Origin: Aureispira anguillae
Lineage (GTDB): Bacteria > Bacteroidota > Bacteroidia > Chitinophagales > Saprospiraceae
Assembly (NCBI RefSeq): GCF_026000115.1
Contig: NZ_AP026867.1
Coordinates: 4,211,716 to 4,275,715 of the forward strand
DNA length: 64,000 bases
Direction: 5' to 3'
Positions 18,808 through 48,604 of the stretch are shown here, one piece after another. The notes under the pieces are model-generated. The model had not been told where the DNA came from and made no database searches. It saw nothing but the letters and a program-made list of their open reading frames with translations. Position 1 is the first letter of the stretch. Each line of letters opens with the position of its first letter. The position numbers and the translations under genes are program-made.

Positions 18808-19251
18808 CTATCCCTCCAAATATTTTTCGAGCAGCTCAATCGTCTTTTGCTTGGTTGCACTCAGCTCTTGTTGTAAACTAATAATCAATTCATCCTTTTT
18901 CTGTAAGTCCAATAAATGTTGGTTCTGGCTGCGTTCCAATTCGTTTTTGTATTCCTTGACCCTATCCTGAATCATATCCTTAATTCTAGGATCAGCCTCA
19001 ACCTCTATTACATTTTTTATCATAACACCTGTACCTGTTAGCAACCAATGATAGTTTACTTTATCAGGATAATGAGTAGCAATTTTTGCTACTAAATTTA
19101 AGTTAGGTATTGTTTTTCGTCTATAAATATTGGATATATTCTGACTATTAACTCCTAAGCCTCTGGCAAATTTACTTACGTTTTTATCACAGCCTAGATA
19201 ATTTAGAACTGTAATTAGTCGACTATGTAGCTTTATATCTCCTTCCTTCAT
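18808..19251 (-). CDS. HTH repressor-like protein with coiled-coil tail, array copy 1
   Basis: A 147-residue protein. The N-terminal HTH (KFARGLGVNSQNISNIYRRKTIPNL) is followed by the VNYHWLLTGTGVM linker, a pattern common in phage and conjugative-element CI-type repressors of Bacteroidota. The S24 peptidase/dimerisation domain is absent, replaced by a charged coiled coil (residues of about 95-147, ending KTIELLEKYLEG). ATG at 19251 is used; a TTG lies directly before it. It is the first of three tandem paralogues, and its upstream region is also duplicated (see 19323-19463). The role is probably autorepression from the operator-like dyad at 19325-19340. Confidence 0.8.
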   Translation of the reverse strand: MKEGDIKLHSRLITVLNYLGCDKNVSKFARGLGVNSQNISNIYRRKTIPNLNLVAKIATHYPDKVNYHWLLTGTGVMIKNVIEVEADPRIKDMIQDRVKEYKNELERSQNQHLLDLQKKDELIISLQQELSATKQKTIELLEKYLEG

Positions 19252-19324
19252 CAAACCAAAAATTGTTGTTTTCTTTTATGAATGCTTGTACTTTTTTCAA
19301 ATCAATTATCTGTTCCAATTAAAC

Positions 19325-19340
19325 TGTAAACAACTCTACA
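19325..19340. promoter_or_regulatory. Operator-like dyad, array copy 1
   Basis: TGTAAACAACTCTACA has TGTA/TACA ends and is repeated exactly at 20069-20084, although surrounding bases have diverged. It lies between the putative -7 element at 19361-19368 and the HTH start, the right place for autoregulation. Operator function is inference. Confidence 0.5.
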
Positions 19341-19360
19341 TCAATATAAAATAATAGAAA

Positions 19361-19368
19361 CAAATGTA
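19361..19368 (-). promoter_or_regulatory. Candidate -7 promoter element for array copy 1
   Basis: The minus strand reads TACATTTG, matching the Bacteroidota -7 consensus TAnnTTTG about 110 nt upstream of the HTH start. The same element sits at 20105-20112 upstream of copy 2. No clear -33 element was found. Confidence 0.45.
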
Positions 19369-19373
19369 AATAT

Positions 19374-19463
19374 ATGAAAAAAAGTAGTAGTGCAGGTATA
19401 GACGAACACAAAAAGCTAAAGGCTAAATCTGTTCTCTCTAATTTAACAGAATCATATTTGTAA
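19374..19463 (+). pseudogene. 29-codon remnant of the divergent partner gene, copy 1
   Basis: A short ORF (start MKKSSSAGIDEHKKLKAKSV) sits immediately after the shared promoter block, divergent from the HTH gene. Its start context (AAATGTAAATATATGAAAAAAA) and its MKK...KKLKAK residues match the beginning of the intact 75-residue gene at 20997-21224, after which it stops. It may be a decayed partner gene or a leader peptide. Confidence 0.4.
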
Positions 19464-19549
19464 AAGGGAGTTAAAAAAAGGACAAACTGAGCGCTAACCC
19501 AGTATAAAATCTAGATGGCATTAGACCTTGAATTGCTGTAAATTTGTAG

Positions 19550-19993
19550 TTATTGCTCTAACTGTTTTTCTAAAAGGTCGATGGTCTTTTGTTTAGTAGC
19601 ACTTAGCTCTTGCTGTAAACGAATGATTTGTTCGTCCTTTTTTTGCAAGTTTAATAAATACAAATTTTGGTTGCACTCTATTTCGCTTTTGTACTTTTCG
19701 ATGCGGTCATGGATAATATCTTTAGCTCTAGATTTTACATCAACCTCTACCACATCTTTTATCATCGCACCTGTACCCGTTAGCAACCAATGATAGTTTA
19801 CTTTATCAGGATAATGAGTGGCAATTTTTTCCATCAACTTTAGATTAGGAATTGTTTTTCGCTTATATATATTTGATATATTCTGATTATTAACTCCTAA
19901 GCCTCTCGCAAATTTGCTTATATTTTTATCGCACTCTAGATAATTTAGTACTGCAATTAGTCGCTTATGTAGCTTTACATCTGCTTCCTTCAT
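19550..19993 (-). CDS. HTH repressor-like protein with coiled-coil tail, array copy 2
   Basis: A 147-residue paralogue, very close to copy 1 throughout: KFARGLGVNNQNISNIYKRK, HWLLTGTGAM, and the coiled-coil end QQELSATKQKTIDLLEKQ. The HTH and linker are nearly identical between the copies, while the region of about residues 80-120 is more diverged. The start is ATG 19993, again preceded by TTG. Promoter and dyad are duplicated with the gene (20069-20112). It is likely a recent tandem duplication giving repressors that could heterodimerise or share operators. Confidence 0.8.
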   Translation of the reverse strand: MKEADVKLHKRLIAVLNYLECDKNISKFARGLGVNNQNISNIYKRKTIPNLKLMEKIATHYPDKVNYHWLLTGTGAMIKDVVEVDVKSRAKDIIHDRIEKYKSEIECNQNLYLLNLQKKDEQIIRLQQELSATKQKTIDLLEKQLEQ

Positions 19994-20068
19994 CAAATCA
20001 AAATTGTTGTTTTCTTGTGTTAATTCTTATGCTTTTTTCAAAAATTCAATCAATTGTTTCAATTAAAC

Positions 20069-20084
20069 TGTAAACAACTCTACA
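20069..20084. promoter_or_regulatory. Operator-like dyad, array copy 2
   Basis: An exact second copy of the TGTAAACAACTCTACA dyad, at the same spacing from the -7-like element (20105-20112, minus strand) and the HTH start as in copy 1. Confidence 0.5.
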
Positions 20085-20104
20085 TCAATAGAGAACAATA
20101 GAAA

Positions 20105-20112
20105 CAAATGTA
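20105..20112 (-). promoter_or_regulatory. Candidate -7 promoter element for array copy 2
   Basis: The minus strand reads TACATTTG, matching TAnnTTTG, in the same context as copy 1. Confidence 0.45.
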
Positions 20113-20117
20113 AATAT

Positions 20118-20252
20118 ATGAAAAAAATGCAGTAGTGAAGCGAATAGACCAGCATAAAAAGATAAAAGCTAAATCTGTTGCGACAAATTTAGCAGTGCTA
20201 GGTTACTTGATGTTTTGTAAGGGAGTAAAGAAGTTGCCTCTAAAATAGATTA
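20118..20252 (+). pseudogene. Frameshifted remnant of the divergent partner gene, copy 2
   Basis: The ATG at 20118 is followed by a stop after five codons. A two-base length difference relative to copy 1 shifts the frame, after which IDQHKKIKAKSVATNL continues in another frame, aligned with IDEHKKLKAKSVLSNL of copy 1. This looks like a decayed gene rather than a functional one. The 3' limit is uncertain. Confidence 0.4.
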
Positions 20253-20660
20253 CTGTTTTAGATTTTTTTCTAAGAGATCAATGGCTTTTTGTTGTGCTTT
20301 ACTTAAGTCACTTTGTAGGGCTATGATGAGTTGATTTTTTTCCTTCAACTCCGTTAAGTAAGCTATTTCCAATTCATTAGTACGATTATAATCGCTGCCG
20401 TCCTTTTCTATTCCAACTGTATTATCCAACATTTTCCCCATTCCTGTTAATAACCAATGGTAATTAACTTGATTGGGATATTGAGTCGCAATTTTTGAAA
20501 TTAAGTTCAATTTAGGGATCGTATTATTATTGTAAATATTAGATATATTTTGGCTATTAACCCCCAATCCCTTGGCAAATTTCCTTTTATTTTTATCACA
20601 ATCTAAATAATTCAAGACCGCAATTAATCGACGATGTAATTTAATATCTGCTTCTTTCAT
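20250..20660 (-). CDS. HTH repressor-like protein with coiled-coil tail, array copy 3
   Basis: A 136-residue, more diverged paralogue of the two preceding genes. It keeps KFAKGLGVNSQNISNIY and VNYHWLLTGMGKM and a shorter coiled-coil tail ending QQKAIDLLEKNLKQ. The recognition segment differs (IYNNNTIPKL against IYRRKTIPNL), so it may bind a different operator. Its upstream region does not carry the dyad of copies 1 and 2 but has a near-palindrome at 20684-20699. ATG 20660 is the start. It faces the intact divergent HTH gene at 20997, as in a CI/Cro pair. Confidence 0.8.
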   Translation of the reverse strand: MKEADIKLHRRLIAVLNYLDCDKNKRKFAKGLGVNSQNISNIYNNNTIPKLNLISKIATQYPNQVNYHWLLTGMGKMLDNTVGIEKDGSDYNRTNELEIAYLTELKEKNQLIIALQSDLSKAQQKAIDLLEKNLKQ

Positions 20661-20996
20661 TGAAATTTAAAATGTTAATATTTTGTTAAAATTTTTACAT
20701 TAATTTCAAAACATTAATCTTTATTTGTATTTTTAAATATATAAATACGATCCTCACTTAATTGGCAATCTTTAATTTATAAATATTTCAAATATGGTTA
20801 AGTAAATGATGGCTATTGCTCTTTTGTTACAGAAAGAGCAACGACTAGGGTTATTTTGTTTTTGTAGTATTCAGAGTACCCACACTATTTACAGCATATA
20901 AACAATTGGTTTTGTTTATTTAATGCCTTTTGTTCTTATTGATAAATTGAGCATGATTGCCACTTAATGTCCTATAATAGACAGAAATGTAAATCT
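20661..20996. other. Divergent regulatory region of array copy 3
   Basis: About 335 bp between the divergent HTH genes. It holds the near-palindrome TGTTAAAATTTTTACA (20684-20699) and a 9-bp hairpin (TTGCTCTTT against AAAGAGCAA) at 20816-20841. A block just before 20997 resembles the sequence next to the remnants of copies 1 and 2. No ORF was credible. Confidence 0.55.
20684..20699. promoter_or_regulatory. Operator-like near-palindrome, array copy 3
   Basis: TGTTAAAATTTTTACA is a near-perfect dyad 24 bp upstream of the copy 3 start. It keeps the TGT/ACA ends of the dyads in copies 1 and 2 with a different centre, consistent with the changed recognition helix. This is inference. Confidence 0.4.
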
Positions 20997-21224
20997 ATGA
21001 AAAAAACAGAAGTGAAGCTAACCAAGGAGCAGAAAAAATTAAAAGCAAAGTTAGAGTATGGAGACATCGGAAACCTTTGCCGTGTATTAGAAGTGTCTAG
21101 AATGACGTTTTGGAAAACCCTTAATGGAAGGCGAAAGTCTCCATATATTTGGGATGCTATACGACGCCTAACAGAGCAACGAGATGCTAAAAGGGCTCGT
21201 AACATAACTCATTTAACTCCATAA
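20997..21224 (+). CDS. Small Cro-like HTH protein, divergent partner of the array
   Basis: A 75-residue basic protein. A lysine-rich N-terminus (KLTKEQKKLKAKLEYG) leads into a HTH-like helix pair (IGNLCRVLEVSRMTFWKTLNG) and a basic tail. Its size and divergent orientation recall Cro opposite CI. ATG 20997 is chosen over the in-frame ATG at 20967 because the sequence around 20997 matches that around the remnant starts at 19374 and 20118. Family membership beyond HTH is not recognised. Confidence 0.65.
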   Translation: MKKTEVKLTKEQKKLKAKLEYGDIGNLCRVLEVSRMTFWKTLNGRRKSPYIWDAIRRLTEQRDAKRARNITHLTP

Positions 21225-46914: not shown

Positions 46915-47409
46915 ATGAGAAAGCTATTTAATCTATTTGCTATCTTACTACTATCAGTGGCGGCTGCCTCTGCTCAAGACATTAAATTTGAATTATACAA
47001 AGGTGAAAAAGCGGAAGCTAAAGATCTAAAAACGGCGGATGAACAACAAGGTGCCAAATTATCTCAATCAGGAACAGCAACAGACTGGAACTATGGAAAA
47101 ATTGAAAAGGCTTCTACTGGAGTTCGCTTTTTTAAGTTTACCAACACAGGAGCTGCTCCCCTAGTTATTTCGGCAGCAAAAGGAAGTTGTGGTTGTACCG
47201 TTCCTTCTTATCCTAAAGAACCAATTATGCCTGGTGAAGCAGGTTATATCAAAGTAAAATATGATACCAAACGAGTTGGGGCGTTTACTAAATATGTAAC
47301 GTTAACCACCAATGCAACTTCTTCATCTACTACTCGCCTAAAAATTAATGGTACTGTAGAAGCTGAAGCAGCACCAACTCCAGCCAAAGAAAAAACAATG
47401 TTTAACTAG
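46915..47409 (+). CDS. Secreted DUF1573 protein, tandem copy 1
   Basis: A 164-residue exported protein with a signal peptide ending ASAQ. It carries a short Lys/Asp/Glu-rich linker and a DUF1573 domain: WNYGKIEKASTG, FFKFTNTGAAPLVIS, SCGCTVPSYPKEPIMPGE, KVKYDTKRVGAF. DUF1573 is an Ig-like (ASH/MSP-type) fold of unknown function, usually periplasmic or surface-located. The C-x-C pair in SCGC could bind metal or form a disulfide. It is the first of three paralogues in a row. Confidence 0.9.
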   Translation: MRKLFNLFAILLLSVAAASAQDIKFELYKGEKAEAKDLKTADEQQGAKLSQSGTATDWNYGKIEKASTGVRFFKFTNTGAAPLVISAAKGSCGCTVPSYPKEPIMPGEAGYIKVKYDTKRVGAFTKYVTLTTNATSSSTTRLKINGTVEAEAAPTPAKEKTMFN

Positions 47410-47418
47410 AACGATCAA

Positions 47419-47460
47419 TTAATAGTCCATTAACTAAAATTTTAGTTAATGGACTATTAA
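47419..47460 (+). terminator. Perfect 42-bp palindrome after DUF1573 copy 1
   Basis: Two 21-nt arms are exact complements with no loop nucleotides between them; the tip is ...CTAAAATTTTAG.... It lies 10 bp after the stop. In RNA it would form a long hairpin ending in an AT-rich tip, a strong candidate terminator or 3' stabiliser. Confidence 0.7.
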
Positions 47461-47578
47461 AATTCTAGGAATTCTAATTTTTTCCACTTATATTCGTAAA
47501 CAAGTTAGAGTAAACATACGTTTTTGAATTACTCAACTCTATCTATATTGATTATTCTCAACATAAAATTAACATAAA

Positions 47579-48076
47579 ATGAAAAAGATATTTTCCCTAT
47601 TAGCAATCTTGCTTGTAACGATTTCCTTTGCATCTGCTCAAGAGATTCATTTTGACAATTATGAAGGAGGAGATTATACCAAAGCAGCTTCTGCTGATGA
47701 AAAAGCAGGCGCAAAAATGAGCCAACCAGGTACTACTGCAACAGAGTGGAACTATGGCTCTATCAAGAATGCCTCTACTGGATATCGTTATTTCAAGTTT
47801 ACCAATACAGGAAAAGGTCCTTTGGTTATTTCTGCAGCAAAAGGAAGTTGCGGTTGTACGGTTCCTTCTTATCCTAAAGAGCCAATTATGCCTGGACAAA
47901 GTGAATTCATTAAAGTAAAATATGATACTAAGCGCCCTGGTGCTTTTACTAAATATGTAACACTAACCACAAACGCTCAAACTAATACAACTACTCGTCT
48001 AAAAATCTTTGGTACAGTAGGTGCAGCTGCTTCTGCTCCTGCCTCTAAAACACCTGTTGCTGCGCCAAAAGGATAA
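47579..48076 (+). CDS. Secreted DUF1573 protein, tandem copy 2
   Basis: A 165-residue paralogue, close to copy 1 over the whole mature domain (SAAKGSCGCTVPSYPKEPI is identical), with signal peptide FASAQ. It differs mainly in the linker after the signal and in the Ala/Pro-rich C-terminal tail. Its own terminator follows, suggesting each copy is an independent unit. Confidence 0.9.
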   Translation: MKKIFSLLAILLVTISFASAQEIHFDNYEGGDYTKAASADEKAGAKMSQPGTTATEWNYGSIKNASTGYRYFKFTNTGKGPLVISAAKGSCGCTVPSYPKEPIMPGQSEFIKVKYDTKRPGAFTKYVTLTTNAQTNTTTRLKIFGTVGAAASAPASKTPVAAPKG

Positions 48077-48102
48077 AATATAGACTATAACAATTAGTCA
48101 CT

Positions 48103-48132
48103 CCCATAGCTTAATTGCTGTGGGATTTTTTT
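48103..48132 (+). terminator. Terminator after DUF1573 copy 2
   Basis: An 8-bp stem (CCCATAGC against GCTGTGGG, one G-U) with a 6-nt loop, followed by A and seven T residues. Confidence 0.88.
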
Positions 48133-48193
48133 CACTCACATTAACTAAGTTTTTAGTTAAATAACTATTTACTTAGTTTAAAAACCACTTCTT

Positions 48194-48604
48194 ATGAAAA
48201 TGAAATTCATGTTAGCCACCATTCTATTTCTTTTAATGAGTAATAGCTATGCCCAAGAAATTAAATTTGAAACACAAAAAATTGATTATGGTACCGTATC
48301 TCAAAATAGCGATGGTACCCGACACTTTTCTTTTACCAATACAGGTTCAGCCCCTCTTATCATCCAAAATGCACAAAAAAGTTGTGGCTGTACGGTTCCC
48401 ACTTGGCCAAAAGAACCAATTATGCCTGGTGAAAGTGCTAAAATTACGGTTAAGTACAATACCACTAAATTGGGTGCTTTTAGCAAGTATGTTACAATTA
48501 CTAGTAATGATACCAAAACCCCCAGTACTAGATTACAAATAGTAGGCACTATTGTTCAAGAAGCACCAGCCGTCCCTCTAAAGGATCATACTGTTTTTAA
48601 GTAA
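48194..48604 (+). CDS. Secreted DUF1573 protein, tandem copy 3
   Basis: A 136-residue, shorter and more diverged member with signal peptide SYAQ. It lacks the charged linker and goes straight into the domain (KIDYGTVSQNSDGTRHFSF, SCGCTVPTWPKEPIMPGE). The C-terminal tail (VPLKDHTVF) again resembles the end of copy 1 (KEKTMF). It is convergent with the DUF3298 gene. Confidence 0.9.
   Translation: MKMKFMLATILFLLMSNSYAQEIKFETQKIDYGTVSQNSDGTRHFSFTNTGSAPLIIQNAQKSCGCTVPTWPKEPIMPGESAKITVKYNTTKLGAFSKYVTITSNDTKTPSTRLQIVGTIVQEAPAVPLKDHTVFK

Follow-up and report, generated by a model that had tools for sequence, protein, structure and literature searches.

A possible phage-derived CI/Cro-type switch with a triplicated repressor in the chromosome of Aureispira anguillae

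The decision switch of phages P2 and 186 is among the closest described counterparts of the locus presented here. Apl of phage 186 uses direct repeats that lie between the early promoters at intervals of one turn and needs three of them side by side, and the operators of Apl/Cox-type switch proteins are helically phased direct repeats (PMC7498355). The Aureispira locus likewise combines a repressor without an S24 match with a small partner, and in relatives direct repeats one helix turn apart lie between the two genes, degraded but in register in A. anguillae. Unlike the genes of Aureispira, which diverge, the promoters of 186 are convergent (PMC7498355); in addition, no integrase is found among the scanned neighbours of the Aureispira pair, and in A. 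anguillae the repressor is tripled. Bacteroidetes LexA (PMC8565304) is also a phage-type HTH repressor adopted by the chromosome, in which paralogues arise, but it has an S24 domain and binds the palindromes GGA-N5-TCC or CTAA-N5-TTAG. The head-to-tail wHTH oligomers of BldC and RdfS (PMC11963761) place one protein per DNA turn, which would suit a ladder of this kind; no relative of such a protein was identified at the locus of the Aureispira pair. The titles and abstracts searched yielded no literature on the locus or its array.

The window, a 64,000-nucleotide stretch of DNA from the marine bacterium A. anguillae, holds three neighbouring minus-strand paralogues (Table 1). The original prediction described them as ORFs of 147, 147 and 136 residues sharing KFA.GLGVN.QNISNIY and VNYHWLLTG, and both statements were confirmed, with lengths counted from ATG; the ORF list extends copies 1 and 2 by one TTG codon. 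Copy 2 shares 76% identity with copy 1 and 58% with copy 3, and a 278-nt stretch occurs three times at spacings of 742 and 667 bp, with 78% and 72% identity to the reference copy. PHROG repressor families match the copies with E-values down to 9e-9, as is characteristic of a CI/Cro-type HTH. The Pfam HTH matches lie below the cut-off, NCBIfam gave matches far under its cut-off only, and both matches to solved structures are at chance level. The tails had been predicted to form a coiled coil in place of an S24 domain. The absence of S24 stood, as the tails of about 60-70 residues have no such match in Pfam and the C-terminal feature of a lambda-type CI is missing; the coiled coil was not confirmed, hydrophobic residues at heptad positions a and d showing no excess over shuffles in any of six sequences. 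At most one Pro or Gly occurs within the final 38 residues. PADLOC returned just weak HTH matches, and a defence system was rejected on this ground.

Table 1. Features at the repressor-partner locus (positions in the window; position 1 is its first letter)
Feature	Position	Strand	Remarks
CI-like repressor copy 1	18808..19254	-	147 aa, ATG at 19251
TTGAAA, possible -33 element of copy 1	19295..19300	-	invariant in six aligned upstream regions; putative promoter role
Degraded array, five 10-bp units, stub 1 leader	19325..19374	+	relatives' unit matrix: 12.9 in register, -53 to -93 in nine others
Decayed Cro-like 5' stub, upstream of copy 1	19374..19426	+	alignment score vs shuffles
CI-like repressor copy 2	19550..19996	-	147 aa, ATG at 19993
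TTGAAA, possible -33 element of copy 2	20036..20041	-	invariant in six aligned upstream regions; putative promoter role
Degraded array, five 10-bp units, stub 2 leader	20069..20118	+	relatives' unit matrix: 12.4 in register, -55 to -95 otherwise
Decayed Cro-like 5' stub, upstream of copy 2	20118..20172	+	alignment score vs shuffles
CI-like repressor copy 3	20250..20660	-	136 aa; adjoins intact partner gene
TTGAAA, possible -33 element of copy 3	20704..20709	-	invariant in six aligned upstream regions; putative promoter role
Strongly degraded array, five 10-bp units, leader of intact Cro-like gene	20948..20997	+	-3.3 in register, -61 to -80 otherwise
Cro-like small HTH gene	20997..21224	+	75 aa from start kept in relatives

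In four further Aureispira genomes, which amount to three independent sequences, one repressor and one partner adjoin the same patatin gene; counting A. anguillae, five genomes have the two genes intact next to patatin. Families of phage, integrase or conjugation proteins were absent from the 10 flanking window proteins scanned, the remaining window ORFs being viewed as translations, and likewise from 9 scanned neighbours in relatives; the window contains no tRNA, and no effector gene lies alongside the pair. A prophage or integrative element at this place was rejected, since no such family occurs among the scanned neighbours and the patatin place is kept. A tandemly duplicated chromosomal pair of CI/Cro type, as originally proposed, is supported by these scans and by the same patatin place in the four relatives, and the orthologues, judged by the neighbours scanned, lie outside prophages and integrative elements. 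Because the patatin neighbour is shared and the scanned neighbours include neither an integrase nor a phage gene, the sequences identify the pair as fixed in the chromosome and, in the window lineage, amplified through old duplications, with purifying selection acting on it.

More distantly related repressors lie inside integrative elements of Aureispira and are common in viral contigs, with at least 171 relatives among 600 candidates. The modules of the integrative elements (loci L123, L124 and L126-L131) resemble the chromosomal pair in having a homologous CI (hhalign 98.5%, E 2e-15), a divergent small HTH gene and TGTA-type decamers between the two. They differ in that their decamers read TGTARACNAA, usually in three units, their Cro-like partner is not homologous by profile (hhalign 2% against the 75-aa partner), and they carry an extra AlpA-like gene as well as an integrase in those cases where one is seen, neither of which accompanies the chromosomal pair in the stretches and neighbours scanned. 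The 75-aa partner also has no detectable homology to the AlpA-like set (hhalign 0.5%), and the winged-helix RDF that is the mark of the P2/186 type was not recognised in it. Five phage records, the RcapMu c repressor among them, match across the HTH at 31-37% identity.

Whichever two CI copies or two cro genes are compared, pN lies well below pS, a codon pattern that shows purifying selection on the three repressors and the intact partner. The full-length tree joins copies 1 and 2 as sisters with support 100/98; a tree of the HTH only leaves them unresolved. Copy 3 is marginally nearest to the relatives (64% to G003 vs 61% and 60% for the other copies). It had been credited with diverged specificity through a changed recognition segment and operator, which we find unsupported because the three copies and the relatives have one and the same QNISNIY helix. 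Directly after this helix copy 3 has NNN at 44-46, two residues being altered, and departs at R45, which the other five sequences retain; directly before it copy 2 alone is altered (S36N). The upstream DNA that copies 1 and 2 were noted to share was recovered as 85 nt at 91% identity, and a 27-mer from it has exactly two sites in the genome, allowing up to 3 mismatches. Copies 1 and 2 have the same third base in 65/84 codons of the HTH but in 29/63 of the tail (p 1e-4); therefore, the common upstream DNA may reflect recombination, that is gene conversion, rather than operator constraint.

The small HTH gene predicted to diverge from copy 3 is present, with its conserved start at ATG 20997 and not at 20967. 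The decayed 5' stubs of the same gene upstream of copies 1 and 2 had been overlooked in the original prediction. The score of stub 1 against each of three relatives' cro genes was reached by 0/500 shuffles and that against the window's own cro gene by 18/500; without its A-rich start stub 1 is not significant (912/1000 shuffles). For stub 2, 0/500 shuffles reached the score with each of four cro genes, and 2/1000 did so without the A-rich start. On these alignments the repeat unit is the repressor together with the beginning of the divergent partner.

The intergenic DNA of the relatives consists of about nine 10-bp direct repeats, TGTANMMMAW, that terminate at the Cro-like ATG, and in each of three independent relatives the periodicity at lags 10, 20 and 30 was reached by 0/1000 shuffles. 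A reading frame across the array is open in G001 and G006 and closed by a stop in G003; hence, the array was not taken as coding. For the window's own arrays the lag tests are weak and TGTA triplets occur at chance level (8 seen vs 7.7 expected), and the case rests on the register test, in which all three score far higher in register than in any other phase (Table 1). The exact dyad reported at 19325 and 20069 is real as a sequence, TGTA-N8-TACA; its arms are 4 bp long in AT-rich DNA, and it reads better as the opening units of the 10-bp direct-repeat array, which the original prediction had missed.

The explanation we favour, at roughly even chances, is a stand-alone two-gene switch derived from a phage and fixed in the Aureispira chromosome with an Apl/Cox-style operator. 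The CI-like repressor and the divergent 75-aa HTH protein would control each other by mutual repression through the common promoter region; in the partner's leader a ladder of 10-bp direct repeats would offer one site per helix turn. Cooperative occupation of the array would fall to one protein or the other, our first guess being the 75-aa one. In the window lineage the unit of repressor, promoter region and partner start would have been duplicated twice, after which the surplus partners were lost to decay and the three repressors retained, the extra ones possibly as added dosage or in mixed oligomers. Such a locus would represent a phage-type decision switch kept by a bacterial chromosome without its phage, and the natural series of one copy in relatives and three here, with partners partly decayed, would display the fate of a circuit in which only the repressor is amplified.

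The repressors might instead be kept for superinfection immunity, silencing incoming related elements, with tandem copies widening the range of operators recognised. Homologous repressors do occur in resident elements and abound in viral contigs, but the invariant QNISNIY helix and the weak, HTH-only PADLOC matches speak against this, and several searches, one of them ending at 600 candidate stretches, found no element or virus combining the array with this CI subfamily; we consider it improbable. Pattern searches combined with tblastn, one of which covered 600 candidate stretches, gave no viral-contig relative of either the CI or the Cro of the window type. TGTA arrays were seen in seven viral contigs, six as nearly uniform tandem repeats and one less uniform, and no profile of the CI-, Cro- or AlpA-like type matched within 2 kb in any of the seven; the viral contigs contained no decamer triple of the element type. 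Decayed cro stubs and a degraded window array would also befit the relic of a mobile-element switch that has no present function, a reading made very improbable by the low pN relative to pS in three repressors and intact partner and by the intact gene pair adjoining patatin in five genomes.

OmpR/PhoB-type response regulators also use direct repeats of 10-11 bp, and a regulator of this class, or an RDF-like protein, acting from a distant gene could bind the array and have the CI/Cro pair among its targets. Arrays of the same consensus far from the pair, upstream of genes for a sensor histidine kinase and an injection system (both in relatives only) and for a lipoprotein, are consistent with this, as is the company of decamers and AlpA-like genes in integrative elements, where the gene is present at 12/13 loci with decamers vs 1/16 without. 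Against it, no arrays are longer than those of the CI/Cro locus, whose units keep register with the Cro-like ATG, and no AlpA-like profile match was found in the window or in eight other stretches, four of them holding the pair. An unlinked regulator of this sort is possible, if rather doubtful.

Returning to the switch, the phased ladder at further promoters in two of the relatives' lineages raises the hypothesis of a regulon. The pair would then be a host regulator, one protein binding TGTANMMMAW arrays at its own locus and at the kinase, contractile-injection-system and lipoprotein genes, which we regard as unlikely. Were it so, a phage-type bistable switch free of any phage would govern both signalling and the expression of the injection system in some Aureispira. 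The window lineage would have rewired this switch, its remote arrays gone, its own arrays degraded and its repressor tripled. Total counts at two mismatches gave no excess of the array over the backward control (G003 32 vs 33, G000 10 vs 6), a control regarded as contaminated because the arrays nearly match it too. The case for the remote arrays relies on exact matches and their computed expectation; the array upstream of the histidine kinase reaches 37/40.

The three minus-strand reading frames and the divergent plus-strand frame of the original prediction were found as described in the ORF listing. All three CI-like copies share a CI/Cro-type HTH and the VNYHWLLTG motif, with more variable tails. 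They match phage repressor families in PHROGs, with E-values as low as 9e-9; matches to Pfam HTH_3 and Phage_CI_repr stayed below cut-off. As predicted, no S24 domain was matched in any copy by the profile search. The predicted coiled-coil tails, still plausible, did not rise above shuffles in a heptad test. A diverged specificity of copy 3 was not borne out, as the QNISNIY helix is the same in all three copies and the changes are confined to residues beside it.

Positions of the genes in the window and of decamer arrays in stretches (L) fetched from other genomes of the genus
Feature	Location	Strand	Type
CI-like copy 1	18808-19254	minus	ORF
CI-like copy 2	19550-19996	minus	ORF
CI-like copy 3	20250-20660	minus	ORF
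Cro-like gene	ends at 21224	plus	ORF
TGTA decamer arrays upstream of 787-aa and 807-aa genes	L162 4943-5002, L163 4564-4633, L167 2529-2588		
Four-unit array upstream of 1255-aa sensor histidine kinase gene, G003 and G006	L164 5217-5256, L166 378-417		

With copy 2 as query, matches were found in 6 of 60 genomes, its own 7.8-Mb genome included. Five are strong and all from Aureispira (the window's genome, G000, and its relatives G001, G003, G006 and G008), while the sixth, from another family, is weak (E 8e-4) and lies in an unrelated long frame. The Cro-like profile matched the same five genomes and, weakly, one in another genus. In all four relatives one CI-like gene lies tail to tail with a patatin gene, and is transcribed divergently from the Cro-like gene; this single pair beside patatin, set against three repressor copies in the window, supports the proposed tandem amplification of a chromosomal switch. 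Between the end of patatin and the Cro-like stop, G003 and G008 are identical except at 4 of 2260 positions, hence the relatives provide three independent single-copy sequences. The locus in the window is flanked by patatin and acyl-CoA dehydrogenase genes; a strictosidine-synthase/SMP-30-like gene separates patatin from copy 1, and the Cro-like gene is followed by one for an LRR/T9SS protein. The CI-like protein had no match in four of the nine genus genomes: the two flanking genes are convergent neighbours in G005 and G007, enclose two small genes (one ParE-like) in G004, and in G002 patatin has a different neighbour. Phage, integrase and conjugation families were absent from the 10 neighbours scanned in the window and the 9 scanned in G003, G001 and G006, and within these the claim that no phage or integrase genes surround the locus holds.

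Remains of the start of a Cro-like gene were detected on the plus strand upstream of copies 1 and 2 (stubs 1 and 2; repeat families D3 and D4, and frames). The alignment score of stub 2 to each of the four intact Cro-like genes was reached by 0 of 500 shuffles. Stub 1 gave 0 of 500 against each of the three relatives' genes and 18 of 500 against the window's own gene. After removal of the A-rich start stub 2 was still significant (2 of 1000 shuffles) and stub 1 was not (912 of 1000), though direct similarity between the stubs (family D4, 79%) further ties stub 1 to stub 2. The stubs indicate that the duplicated unit comprised the repressor, its promoter region and the beginning, if not more, of the partner gene. 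A full-length tree of the six CI-like sequences joins copies 1 and 2 as sisters (support 100/98); an HTH-part tree with outgroups resolved neither this sisterhood nor the placement of copy 3. Substitution levels (pS 0.50 and pN 0.13 between copies 1 and 2; pS 0.78-0.79 and pN 0.26 between these and copy 3) point to old duplications and to constraint on every copy. Copies 1 and 2 resemble each other more in the HTH and upstream DNA than in the tail, third positions included (p 1e-4), suggesting partial gene conversion between them. Another local tandem amplification lies at 46915-48604, where three tandem genes encode similar small secreted proteins of 164, 165 and 136 aa that carry a KGSCGCTVPSYP-like motif.

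In the relatives, the DNA up to the Cro-like ATG is filled with 10-bp direct repeats. The last 130 nt matched themselves at lags of 10, 20 and 30 better than any of 1000 dinucleotide shuffles in all three independent relatives, and the window's three leaders gave weak signals in the same test. A matrix built on 24 repeat units from the relatives, its register set by the Cro-like ATG, scored 12.9 in the window's leader of stub 1, 12.4 in that of stub 2 and -3.3 in that of the intact gene; shifted to any of the 27 other registers it gave -53 to -95, which argues that the window keeps degraded arrays in the ancestral register. The dyad noticed earlier is present as sequence but, given these scores, is better read as the beginning of two such arrays. 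On the CI strand TTGAAA is invariant across six promoters. The Bacteroidota -7 consensus, TAnnTTTG, precedes the array on the other strand, the match being perfect in G001 and G006 and one base off in G003, so that the array would sit within the Cro leader.

Integrative elements in G000 and G003 combine a CI-like with a small Cro-like gene and with a third that we label AlpA-like, its Pfam HTH_17 match being below cut-off. They form a prophage-like family (L123, L124, L126-L131) with TGTAGACNAA decamers and further genes mostly uncharacterised; a tyrosine integrase is Pfam-confirmed in L123, with look-alike frames in five other elements. The sequence TGTMRACNNATGTMRAC occurs 46 times, in G000, G003 and G008, and was found neither in the other six genus genomes nor in a backward control. 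Of 34 CI-like loci (L012-L045), 29 remained once the four with a single pair and another that proved not to be CI-like were set aside; 13 of the 29 have decamers. The fetched stretch included an AlpA-like gene at 12 of the 13 decamer loci versus 1 of the 16 without (p 3e-6), or 10 of 11 versus 1 of 15 once identical copies were merged (p 2e-5), and a Cro-like gene at 13 of 13 versus 13 of 16 (p 0.23); both profiles were built from decamer-carrying elements, six of them among the 13 loci. L131 has a second decamer pair 73 bp ahead of its integrase-like gene. In L125 (G000:C1:1551000-1570000) the decamer pairs TGTCAACAAATGTAGAC occur at three sites, accompanied by transposase-like genes; no neighbouring CI-like gene was recognised.

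Phage 186 Apl recognises direct repeats spaced by one turn, both at att and in the region between the early promoters (PMC7498355), and RdfS, Cox and BldC assemble head to tail into oligomers (PMC11963761). That the element decamers track the AlpA-like gene fits recombination directionality factors such as Apl. The window's CI is homologous to that of the elements; its Cro-like partner has no detectable homology to their Cro-like or AlpA-like proteins. We give about even chances to the locus being a two-gene switch that derives from a phage, stands alone and uses a phased operator in the style of Apl/Cox. Such a switch would have become fixed in part of Aureispira, and in the window's genome its repressor would have been amplified. 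In this reading a protein would bind the array, the two genes may repress each other, and the pair might have a regulon.

The nine genus genomes were searched for four TGTA at 10-bp steps (at most 2 mismatches, positions 5-10 left free). Apart from those at the CI/Cro loci, exact or one-mismatch arrays lie upstream of a 787-aa gene inside a contractile-injection-system cluster (PAAR, baseplate and tube families) in G003 and G008, and upstream of an 807-aa gene in G006, the two proteins sharing ~90 N-terminal residues (44%). Others precede the sensor histidine kinase gene of both G003 and G006 (the G008 array there has two mismatches), and lie between hemA and a lipoprotein gene in G003 and G008, the only two genomes with that lipoprotein gene. 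What remains at one mismatch is element decamers of G000 and G003, two matches in G005, and single ones in G002 and G008 (C159). The number of exact arrays expected in G003 was computed as 0.007. The kinase arrays of G003 and G006 agree at 37 of 40 positions, whereas their flanks have diverged, agreeing without gaps at 25 of 60 positions ahead of the array and 19 of 60 behind it. Although positions 5-10 were free in the search, 24 remote units from five arrays of G003 and G006 have the same preferences as the 24 locus units, position 6 being exclusively A or C and position 9 A in 24 of 24 in both sets, units within one array being non-independent. This set excludes G008 near-copies, the G005 array of other consensus and two degenerate end units, with which position 9 is A in 25 of 26.

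Several observations count against a regulon, and the remote arrays may instead have originated as dispersed repeats. Arrays are patchy: 3 of 9 kinase genes have one (G001 is masked and the G007 upstream not readable), as do 3 of the 9 genes matching the 787-aa family. A genome search at ≤1 mismatch found no array of the locus consensus in the window's genome, nor does one occur in the 300 nt inspected at the gene there that most resembles the 787-aa one (38%). G005 has an array yet lacks the CI/Cro pair; that array (L165 3723-3782) has six 10-bp units of a YGTATNCGWT-like consensus. The kinase promoter of the window's genome holds an inverted repeat: where relatives have the array, L174 carries a long one (GTATTCGATTGATTATTAA and its complement), possibly a small mobile repeat.
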